DNA of 64,000 nt from NCBI GenBank assembly GCA_905479495.1, contig CAJQMR010000002.1, positions 248,001-312,000 on the forward strand, given 5' to 3'. Positions 1,587 through 55,351 of this stretch are shown piece by piece. A program made the position numbers and the translations under genes. Numbering within the stretch: position 1 is the stretch's first letter; the number at the start of each line of letters is the position of its first letter. This DNA comes from an uncultured Anaerolineae bacterium (GTDB lineage: Bacteria; Chloroflexota; Anaerolineae; Promineifilales; Promineifilaceae). A model generated the notes under the pieces. The model made no database searches and was not told the DNA's origin. It saw nothing but the letters and a program-made list of their open reading frames with translations.

Positions 1587-2531
1587 ATGGATCCTGTCCT
1601 AAAGGCGATTTTGCTTTCCTGGGATTGGAAGATTGAAGTAATTATCGTCCTGGCCCTGGCCGGGACGCTTTTTTCTAGGGGGTGGTGGCAACTGCGTCAG
1701 CGTTCCCGTAGAGCAGCACGGCGCTACCGGCGTACTGCGCGCTCTCGCTGGCGGTTGGCTGTATCCTGGCGGTTGGCAGCTTATTGGGGAGGCTTGCTGG
1801 CCGTAGCCCTTGCTTTGCTTTCGCCAATTGATGCCCTGGGGCAGCAGCTCTTTTTTATGCACATGGTGCAGCATTTGCTGCTGATTATGATTGCCCCGCC
1901 GCTGCTGCTGGTGGCTAATCCTATGCCCTTTATCCTGTGGGGCTTACCCACCGGCTTGCGGCACAAGATAGGTGGCCTATTTAGCCAGGCGTTACATCGC
2001 GAGTCTGGCTTCCGGCGCTGGCTGCGCTTGCTGACGCAACCTGGAATCATCTGGATGGTGTGGGTTGTTTCGCTCATCGGTTGGCATGATCCCAGCATGT
2101 ATAATTTGGCACTGCGGTTTGAATGGGTGCATAATGCAGAACACCTATCTTTTTTTATTGCCAGCATGCTGTTGTGGTGGCATCTTACTGGGGCTGGGCC
2201 GCGTATACACAAGCAGTTTGGCCTGCTGGGGCGCATTGCTTTGGTGATGTCGGTGGTGCCACCCAACATGCTCACGGGAATTGTGCTGGCTTTTGCCACC
2301 CAGGGCTATTATTCATACTATGAATCGGTTCCCCGGCTGTGGGGCTTCGATGTGTTGATGGACCAGCAGCTCGGCGGGGTGATAATGTGGGTGCCGGGCA
2401 GTATGATGTATATTATTGCTGCTTTGATTTTAATCGGCCGTTTTTTGAGCCAGGAAGATCGCAAACCGCAGTTACCGGAGTCTAAATGGGCTTCAGAAAA
2501 GGCTGTGGCTGCCCCTGGCTTAAAGCATTAG
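1587..2531 (+). CDS. ctaG: CtaG-family cytochrome c oxidase assembly protein
   Basis: A 314-residue polytopic membrane protein of the Bacillus-type CtaG (caa3 assembly factor) family, thought to help copper insertion into the oxidase. Seven or so helices are visible after a basic cytoplasmic stretch (QRSRRAARRYRR). His-containing segments such as FFMHMVQHLLLIMIAPPLLL, HNAEHLSFF and WWHLTG match the family, whose conserved His are suspected copper ligands. It follows subunit III after about 150 bases and precedes SURF1, so it belongs to the oxidase assembly cluster. No strong Shine-Dalgarno is seen at the chosen ATG. Confidence 0.9.
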   Translation: MDPVLKAILLSWDWKIEVIIVLALAGTLFSRGWWQLRQRSRRAARRYRRTARSRWRLAVSWRLAAYWGGLLAVALALLSPIDALGQQLFFMHMVQHLLLIMIAPPLLLVANPMPFILWGLPTGLRHKIGGLFSQALHRESGFRRWLRLLTQPGIIWMVWVVSLIGWHDPSMYNLALRFEWVHNAEHLSFFIASMLLWWHLTGAGPRIHKQFGLLGRIALVMSVVPPNMLTGIVLAFATQGYYSYYESVPRLWGFDVLMDQQLGGVIMWVPGSMMYIIAALILIGRFLSQEDRKPQLPESKWASEKAVAAPGLKH

Positions 2532-2539
2532 GGGAGCCT

Positions 2540-2644
2540 ACTGTTTCGCTAAACGAATATTGACGGATAGAAAGGCTGTGGCGAAACAGTTAAACTGAAG
2601 CAAACTTTCACAATTTCTATCCGTAAAAAGAAGTTTGCTTCAGT
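2540..2644 (+). promoter_or_regulatory. Three interleaved perfect inverted repeats, possible kissing-loop RNA
   Basis: Stem 1 pairs 2540-2549 with 2581-2590 (10 bp, ACTGTTTCGC). Stem 2 pairs 2594-2607 with 2631-2644 (14 bp, ACTGAAGCAAACTT). The loop of stem 1 holds 2563-2573 (ACGGATAGAAA), exactly complementary to 2614-2624 in the loop of stem 2 (11 bp). All three pairings are perfect. The element ends just before the likely SURF1 ribosome site (GGAAGGGA near 2648). It could be a leader RNA, a terminator pair or a protein-binding DNA site. Confidence 0.7.
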
Positions 2645-2666: not shown

Positions 2667-3449
2667 ATGAACTTGCTGAAAACGTTATTTAGCCGCCGTT
2701 GGCTGGGTGGTACGCTGCTGGTGTTGTTTGCCATGGGTCTGTTTGTACGCCTGGGCATCTGGCAGCTGGATCGATTGGATCAGCGACGAGCGCAAAATGA
2801 TCAGCTGCGTGCTGTGCTGGATTCGCCACCGTTGGATTTAGCGCAGCCGTTGCCCGAGGGGGCAGAGGCATTGGCACTGCTGGAAAATCGCCTGGCGACG
2901 GTGACGGGACAGTACGATTTTGCTCAGGAGCGGATTTTGCTGCTGCAATCTTGGCAGGGCAGGCCGGGCGTGGCGTTGGTGACGCCGCTGCTCATTGAGG
3001 GGATGGACGAGGCGCCTGCACCGAGTGGAGGTGAAGTGGCCGTTCTCGTTAATCGTGGCTGGGTGCCGCAGGCGGAATACGAAGCCGGGCAGTTGGGCAG
3101 TTATCAAACGGAGACAGGCGTCGTGCAGGTTGATGGTTATCTGGCCTTGGGCCAGCCGAGGCGGGGCGATTCGCCCGAGGTCGCCCCACAAGAAATTTAT
3201 CGCCTTGATTTGGAGGCGCTAGCAGCCGCGTTGCCTTATGATCTGCTGCCCGTGGTTTTGATTGAAGCCCCTACGCAGGAAGTTGAGTTAGAATCGCCAC
3301 TGCATGCCGCTCGCGAGGTTGATTTATCGGAAGGTCCACATCTGAGCTACGCCTGGCAGTGGTTTATTTTTTGTGTGTTGACGGGCAGCCTTTACCTGGT
3401 GTTTGTGCGCCGATCGGAACAGGAACGGCCGTCTCCGCCTACAAATTAA
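2667..3449 (+). CDS. SURF1-family cytochrome oxidase biogenesis protein
   Basis: A 260-residue protein with the SURF1 plan: one N-terminal helix (about 10-30) opening with the basic SRRWLGG, a large extracytoplasmic domain, and one C-terminal helix (about 227-247). Characteristic motifs are GIWQLDRLDQRRAQND, PVLVNRGWVP-like text (VLVNRGWVPQ) and HLSYAWQWF before the last helix. SURF1 helps haem a insertion into subunit I. It follows ctaG and the interleaved inverted repeats. The C-terminus (SEQERPSPPTN) carries one copy of ACGGCCGT. Confidence 0.93.
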   Translation: MNLLKTLFSRRWLGGTLLVLFAMGLFVRLGIWQLDRLDQRRAQNDQLRAVLDSPPLDLAQPLPEGAEALALLENRLATVTGQYDFAQERILLLQSWQGRPGVALVTPLLIEGMDEAPAPSGGEVAVLVNRGWVPQAEYEAGQLGSYQTETGVVQVDGYLALGQPRRGDSPEVAPQEIYRLDLEALAAALPYDLLPVVLIEAPTQEVELESPLHAAREVDLSEGPHLSYAWQWFIFCVLTGSLYLVFVRRSEQERPSPPTN

Positions 3450-20560: not shown

Positions 20561-20593
20561 AGGTGCGACGCACTTTCAAAGTGCGTCGCACCT
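20561..20593 (+). terminator. Perfect 16-bp hairpin with one-base loop
   Basis: AGGTGCGACGCACTTT (20561-20576) pairs perfectly with 20578-20593. It lies nine bases after the stop of the secreted beta-helix gene. There is no U-tract downstream, but a CTTTTTCC run precedes it, so it could act on the opposite strand. Confidence 0.6.
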
Positions 20594-44956: not shown

Positions 44957-44972
44957 GACAGTGAAAAGTGAT

Positions 44973-45013
44973 AAGTGAAAAGTAAAAAGTGGGCCACTTT
45001 TTACTTTTCACTT
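44973..45013. terminator. Bidirectional 20-bp hairpin between convergent genes
   Basis: AAGTGAAAAGTAAAAAGTGG (44973-44992) pairs perfectly with 44994-45013 around a single G. It also covers the last codons of the minus-strand PfkB gene. Confidence 0.7.
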
Positions 45014-45909
45014 TTTACTTCTATCTCCTCCAACTCTGCCTCGGTGAGAAAGCCAGCCGCTGCGCCGTCGCTGCCGATTTTGTAGGCGGCGAAACGGATC
45101 GCTTTTTGCAGGGCGGTGTATGGGTCTTTGCTGGTGCGGTAGAAATGGTTGAAGGCGGAGAAAAGGGCGTCCCCCGCGCCGATGGTGTTGACGACGGGGC
45201 GAATTTGCACGGCGGGCAGCCGTTCGCAAAAGTTGTCGGCCTTCACAGCCAACAGGGCACCCTGGACTCCCAGGCCAATTACCACAATTTCGGTGCCGAA
45301 CTCATTTTGCAGCTTTTTGGCCCACTGCTCCGGCGGCAAGGGAAGCAGCTCATGGCTCATGAAGAGGATGGTAGCGGAGGCCATATAGTCACGGTTGTAC
45401 TCGTCGTTGAGATCGGCAATGGCGTGCACGTCGGTGGCGATGGGGATGTTTGCGGCTTGGGCCTGGGCCAGAAACGGCCGTGTGTAATTCACATTGCACA
45501 AAATGGCCAAATCACTTTCTTCTAACGCTTCTTGGAACAATTCGGGGGGATACGGCCGTTTCTGCACATCCTTCAAATCCGTGTTGCACAGCCGTCGGCC
45601 TTGCTTGTCATACAAAATGACAGACTGCGCTGTTTGCGGCATCCCCGTAACGATGTAATCTGTGCCCAGATTATCTTCCTTAGCCTGCTGCCATATTTGT
45701 TTTCCGGTGACATCGTTGCCCACCAGGGTGAGAAAGTGAATCGGGCTGCCCAGCGTCGTGAGTGCTTTGGCAATGTTGTAGCCTACCCCGGCAACGGCCG
45801 TTTGAATGCCAAAAAATGGGTAGCGCATCGGCGTGTATTCGATGGGAAATTGCTCGACAGCGACCGTTGTTTCTATGTTACTGTGTCCACAAACTAAAAT
45901 CTTTGCCAT
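45001..45909 (-). CDS. PfkB-family carbohydrate kinase (ribokinase-like)
   Basis: 302 residues. The N-terminal glycine-rich signature is TAVAGVGYNIAKALTTLG; signature 2 is NTIGAGDALFSAFNHF (catalytic Asp in GAGD). It phosphorylates a sugar or nucleoside; the exact substrate is unknown. ATG 45909 (MAKILVCGHSN) is preferred to an upstream frame start because AAGGATGG precedes it. The last residues (EVKSEK) are encoded by the terminator hairpin. It is a second member of the family besides 14841. Confidence 0.88.
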   Translation of the reverse strand: MAKILVCGHSNIETTVAVEQFPIEYTPMRYPFFGIQTAVAGVGYNIAKALTTLGSPIHFLTLVGNDVTGKQIWQQAKEDNLGTDYIVTGMPQTAQSVILYDKQGRRLCNTDLKDVQKRPYPPELFQEALEESDLAILCNVNYTRPFLAQAQAANIPIATDVHAIADLNDEYNRDYMASATILFMSHELLPLPPEQWAKKLQNEFGTEIVVIGLGVQGALLAVKADNFCERLPAVQIRPVVNTIGAGDALFSAFNHFYRTSKDPYTALQKAIRFAAYKIGSDGAAAGFLTEAELEEIEVKSEK

Positions 45910-55291: not shown

Positions 55292-55351
55292 CACAGAGTA
55301 TCACAGAGATTTTCTCTGCGAAGCTCTGCGAAATCTCTGTGATACTCTGTG
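55292..55351 (+). terminator. Perfect 21-bp hairpin of CACAGAG words
   Basis: Arm 55292-55312 starts CACAGAGTATCACAGAG and pairs perfectly with 55331-55351. The loop holds TCTCTGCG and CTCTGCG words. It lies between the HerA-like gene and the next small gene. Confidence 0.65.

Follow-up and report, generated by a model that had tools for sequence, protein, structure and literature searches.

Two perfect hairpins whose loops are complementary to each other stand in a short intergenic segment of the window analyzed here (the whole stretch of 64,000 nucleotides, from a genome that we refer to as G000), and they raise two questions: what kind of element is this, and why do its loops match? The upstream gene encodes a Caa3_CtaG oxidase assembly factor (positions 1587 to 2531, plus strand; Pfam PF09678), and the downstream gene encodes a SURF1 family protein (2667 to 3449, plus strand; Pfam PF02104). 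The original prediction left a choice between a kissing-loop leader that controls oxidase assembly and a mobile repeat of double-hairpin form. The second part stood: copies of the element are found at many unrelated places in its own genome and in related ones. The first was not supported, as context and orientation of the copies are random.

Recomputed from the sequence, both stems and the loop-loop match are perfect, at exactly the positions first noted for them. Hairpin A has a 10-bp stem formed by the arms ACTGTTTCGC (2540 to 2549) and GCGAAACAGT (2581 to 2590), hairpin B has a 14-bp stem formed by ACTGAAGCAAACTT (2594 to 2607) and AAGTTTGCTTCAGT (2631 to 2644), and the conserved linker TAA (2591 to 2593; ACTTAA in the family context) lies between them, all given on the plus strand. 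The loop of hairpin A carries a motif, termed X, with the sequence ACGGATAGAAA (2563 to 2573, plus strand), which starts 25 nt in from the left end of the element. The plus-strand letters at 2614 to 2624 in the loop of hairpin B, TTTCTATCCGT, are its perfect 11-bp complement; thus, the minus-strand reading of this motif, 25 nt in from the right end, equals that of unit A. Three such pairings had been thought improbable by chance, and indeed none of 400 random windows (first-order Markov sequences with the same dinucleotide makeup) had an adjacent pair of hairpins with stems of at least 10 bp and even an 8-bp loop-loop match. Both hairpins were recovered by RNA folding (z = -3.7) and by DNA folding on either strand (z = -5.8 and -5.7). 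The true feature is a little longer than the segment first noted (2540 to 2644): boundaries set from near-identical copies with unrelated flanks place the whole element at 2538 to 2649 on the plus strand, with decayed tags, CTAC (2538 to 2541) and CTGG (2646 to 2649), at the ends where intact copies have CTAG. This copy is of type I: its two hairpin units are inverted relative to each other and linked by TAA, it is 83% identical to the C10 copy of G000, and it matches the covariance model described below with 123.7 bits. Other strong perfect hairpins of the window are located at 20561 to 20593 (15-bp stem, 3-nt loop), 44960 to 45020 (19-bp stem), and 55292 to 55351 (21-bp stem).

A genome search for the same element, which had been suggested as a check, located it by BLAST of positions 2530 to 2655 at 12 places on different contigs of G000, the others being 70 to 88% identical to the window copy. 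Ten of these copies were used to build a covariance model, which identified 20 copies in G000 and, as a further suggested check, copies in other genomes: 19 in G001, 7 in G002, and 8 in G003, which together with G000 represent one genus, and 7 in G022, from another genus of the same family. More distant matches led to additional subfamilies with different stems, namely type II in G003 (19 matches, 11 of them at 97 to 99% identity), type III in the Anaerolineae MAGs Zod_Metabat.387 and.487 (G076 and G077, each with no fewer than 40 scored copies), and type IV in G074 and G075. A half-unit pattern detected 128 unit ends in G076 and 151 in G077, versus 11 and 10 with a reversed-pattern control. 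When GTDB genomes were scanned with the stem-A pattern, matches were found only in MAGs named Anaerolineae, Anaerolineaceae, or Chloroflexi/Chloroflexota, and a search for the element in plasmids, phages, and viral contigs returned no matches.

How does this distribution bear on the proposed leader? On the one hand, the window copy lies between CtaG and SURF1, is co-directional with both, and forms strong hairpins when folded as RNA, which is what a cis-regulatory leader of SURF1, controlling oxidase assembly by a kissing-loop pseudoknot, could look like. On the other hand, the copies are mostly intergenic and adjoin many unrelated genes in both orientations, so their position is not conserved: no other fetched copy has CtaG or SURF1 as a neighbor, and the orientation of the 35 copies located between co-directional genes is 17:18. 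No Rfam family scored above its gathering threshold, and none was credible at E ≤ 1. Together with stem mispairs that show no G-U excess, and thus no RNA-strand bias, these results make the leader hardly credible, and an RNA leader or riboswitch was rejected.

The stems show at which level the structure is constrained. Across the alignment, both are paired in 94 to 95% of cells, and double changes over the whole structure exceeded those in all 500 shuffles. Covariation was detected in both arms of each stem; compensated changes include C-G to T-A (20 versus 18 sequences) and A-T to G-C, and the subfamilies retain the pairing of each stem while its sequence changes. Selection on an RNA strand should favor G-U pairs, whereas stem mispairs over three alignments were G-T in 54 cases and A-C in 66. 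The lack of a G-T excess and the random orientation argue for constraint at the level of DNA rather than RNA, and the near-equal mispairs fit a structure that active copies maintain as DNA and that decays neutrally once they have inserted. Part of the stem covariation could also come from template-switch repair of palindromes.

Intact copies have the order CTAG-hairpin A-TTAA-hairpin B-CTAG or, in full, CTAGT-arm A-loop-arm A'-(ACT)TAA-arm B-loop-arm B'-(T)ACTAG, over approximately 112 bp. Each unit of approximately 50 bp comprises the CTAG tag, a stem arm, a loop of approximately 30 nt with a subfamily-specific motif, and the second arm, and the two units are joined tail to tail by TTAA. Single-unit copies (CTAG-hairpin A-CTAG) are present at two G003 loci (L126 and L050); at one of the two, the single unit adjoins a full element in tandem, and tandem elements have one CTAG in common (L050 and L186). 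A type III variant contains an extra small hairpin, CGACCTGCGGTCG, within loop 2 (L274, L277, L281, and L272 in G077; L184 and L205 in G076); because several copies have it, loop 2 appears to tolerate insertions. A lone CTAG-to-CTAG palindrome of unrelated sequence, CTAGATGTGCTAT...AATAGCACATCTAG, lies approximately 110 bp from a full element (L346-L359, G003 C65, 176674 to 176722).

Near-identical copies end exactly at CTAG, and the sequence outside it is unrelated. CTAG bounds every intact copy despite its rarity: it is depleted approximately seven-fold in 1.58 Mb of G003 (865 occurrences versus 5936 expected from base composition). At 14 distinct ends, an upstream open reading frame of at least 90 codons stops at the TAG within the terminal CTAG, and insertion at the terminal CTAG of a gene would keep its stop codon. 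As read from the sequences, the CTAG on either side of all intact copies fits a target duplication of either 4 bp or TA. A preference for palindromic targets, which loci L126 and L112 had brought to mind, was not general (p = 0.15). The orthologous copies L054 (G000) and L083 (G001) lie between the arms of an apparent rho-independent terminator, AAAAGCGGG...CCCGCTTTT, and were retained in two species although their loops diverged. No empty CTAG site was seen in a close relative; hence, we infer mobility itself from the distribution of copies. A mobile element accounts best for the dispersal, the near-identical copies, the CTAG common to tandem elements, and the constant boundaries, and we consider it very likely that this is a short non-autonomous dispersed mobile DNA element of Anaerolineae, MITE- or REP-dimer-like and targeted to CTAG.

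Why, then, do the loops match? When the two halves of 64 distinct elements are each read from their own CTAG, the first six bases (the tag) are 90% identical, whereas the outer arms are 20% identical, the level expected by chance. In the same set, the loops (positions 14 to 40) are 52% identical in register versus 18 to 32% at other offsets, and one half-unit pattern matches both ends of the element. On these sequence comparisons, two inverted copies of one unit make up the element, a dimer whose stems diverged while its loop motif stayed alike. The loops are complementary on one strand because the two halves are in-register inverted copies of this unit, and a kissing contact is not needed to account for the match.

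Could the loop-loop pairing nevertheless be functional in itself, so that hairpins kissing via X and X', as single-stranded DNA or as RNA, tether the two element ends and thereby scaffold transposition? The pairing covaries between subfamilies, and in 23 representatives picked by hand, own loops paired better than permuted loops (mean of -16.7 versus -11.0 kcal/mol; z = -6.8; 0 of 20,000 permutations as good). Compensated loop pairs in type I/V include A-T to T-A, C-G to G-C, and A-T to G-C. However, in-register inverted repeats yield the same signal without any pairing, and the better pairing of own loops, being predicted by inverted symmetry as well, is no proof of a kissing interaction. In addition, only 78% of the type I/V loop helix is paired, its covariation hardly surpasses that of shuffles, and several full copies (II_L100, II_L116, III_L279, and VII_L106) have no loop complementarity. 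An automated permutation test with loose parsing on a less curated set gave a weak result (p = 0.027) and was superseded by the fixed-stem and in-register tests. A functional kissing contact therefore appears improbable, and we give little credence to its more specific form, in which single-stranded DNA forms two hairpins that differ in their stems, match in their loops, and, by loop-loop pairing, join the ends of the 112-nt element for insertion at CTAG in Anaerolineae. The element resembles kissing-loop RNA leaders in having two hairpins with complementary loops; unlike them, it is dispersed and random in orientation, it shows no bias toward an RNA strand, and its complementarity comes from inverted-repeat symmetry. 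As a general caution, such symmetry of an inverted dimer can mimic a conserved kissing-loop RNA, even with covariation.

Among known mobile repeats, the element shares features with MITEs (approximately 70 to 300 bp, non-coding, dispersed, near-identical copies) as well as with REPs and BIMEs (intergenic units that are short and palindromic, numerous, and in part arranged as inverted dimers). Like the bacterial MITEs RUP, NEMIS/Correia, ERIC, and Nezha, it is a foldable, non-coding intergenic sequence of approximately 100 bp that is dispersed in near-identical copies within a genome. In contrast to these MITEs, it has no continuous terminal inverted repeat of 15 to 30 bp, and each of its ends forms its own hairpin. 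If the element were a MITE whose IS630/Tc1-mariner-type transposase targeted the TA in CTAG (C-TA-element-TA-G), the CTAG boundary of every intact copy would be accounted for: IS630 is reported to prefer the TA in 5'-CTAG-3' (Tenzen and Ohtsubo 1991, as cited in PMC2170065), a likeness in insertion specificity that consists of the CTAG target. We nevertheless regard this assignment as unlikely, since the terminal inverted repeat consists of just CTAGT and, separated from it by unrelated 10-bp arms, the in-register subterminal loop motif, and since strong covariation of hairpins is not expected of such elements. Unrelated outer arms at the two ends would also be unusual for a DDE-type MITE in general.

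The other candidate is a repeat of the REP/BIME type, mobilized by a Y1 (IS200/IS605-like, RAYT) transposase, with CTAG replacing the usual GTAG tag. Hairpin repeats usually have Y1 transposases as partners. In architecture, the element matches the GTAG- or CGTC-tagged REP dimers and BIMEs (PMC3733652): its palindromic units are short, intergenic, and marked by a tetranucleotide tag, and they occur in many copies, in inverted dimers with differing stems (heterodimers) and occasionally as monomers. The element differs from these in its tag (CTAG versus GTAG or CGTC at the foot of the hairpin), in its loops of approximately 30 nt with a conserved motif versus mostly 2 to 5 nt in REPs, and in its units of 50 bp versus 20 to 40 (PMC3733652). 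A further difference lies in the genes themselves: REPs and BIMEs flank Y1 genes, whereas none of the Y1 (PF01797) loci found in the incomplete MAGs G000-G003, G022, and G074-G079 is flanked by the element's units, whether judged by a hairpin scan or by CTAG positions. Y1 genes with flanking palindromes in G000-G003, G022, G074, and G075 have short-loop or GTAG-type repeats instead, and the single Y1 gene of G076 has GTAG-type repeats around it, although this genome contains at least 40 copies of the element. These Y1/RAYT genes were rejected as partners because the palindromes around them are of other kinds; movement by a Y1 transposase is thus possible but doubtful.

Several other repeats were seen around Y1 genes. 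The window hairpin at 20561 to 20593 resembles the short-loop repeats that adjoin them. In G003 (C54; L136, 1300 to 2100), a Y1 gene has on both sides long composite hairpins that start with GCTAGTTATGGAAGCC, end with CATAACTAGC, and represent a different family of CTAG-containing palindromes. In G000 (contig C20; L146, 2060 to 2560), three tandem repeats of approximately 211 bp, each with a stem of 16 to 18 bp and a loop of 26 to 30 nt (AGTGCAAGGCACGGGC), lie beside a Y1 transposase gene, apparently inside a gene resembling a restriction specificity subunit.

Searches with the half-unit pattern found end pairs at the spacing of the element, plus copies split by other repeats; among the matches listed, there was no larger autonomous relative, and no end pair in 1.58 Mb of G003 enclosed a transposase. 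The sole 3-kb pair of CTAG hairpins in the same 1.58 Mb encloses an operon and was rejected, as it belongs to another repeat. Copies at L237 (G077 C264) and L239 (3400 to 3850, G077 C490) are split by a repeat with the ends CATAAGTGTCAACTTAAG and CTTAAGTTGACNCTTATG, which apparently represents another family of small mobile elements, one with short target duplications.

Under the preferred reading, a CTAG-targeted mobile element, a transposase supplied in trans would recognize three features of each unit, namely its tag, its loop motif, and its hairpin, the last of these probably in single-stranded or cruciform DNA. The element would insert at CTAG, and insertions may do little harm because this site is rare in these genomes and often forms a gene's own TAG stop codon. 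Identical stems would make a nearly perfect palindrome of approximately 110 bp, prone to deletion by cells, which may be why the stems of the two units differ; with differing stems, either unit could fold by itself. In many REP families, the dimers are predominantly heterodimers, whose stems or loops differ and which may escape the clearance of long hairpins (PMC3733652); this reasoning would also account for the differing stems of the present element. Once inserted, copies would decay neutrally, and the tags of the window copy have already mutated.

We found no earlier description of this family in a limited literature search, and its design, an inverted dimer with the same loop, different stems, and a CTAG tag, appears undescribed. 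Anaerolineae apparently harbor a family of small mobile repeats of distinctive design. If the mobilizing enzyme is found, hundreds of natural variants would be available to ask whether this enzyme responds to the shape of the hairpin, to the sequence of the loop, or to both.
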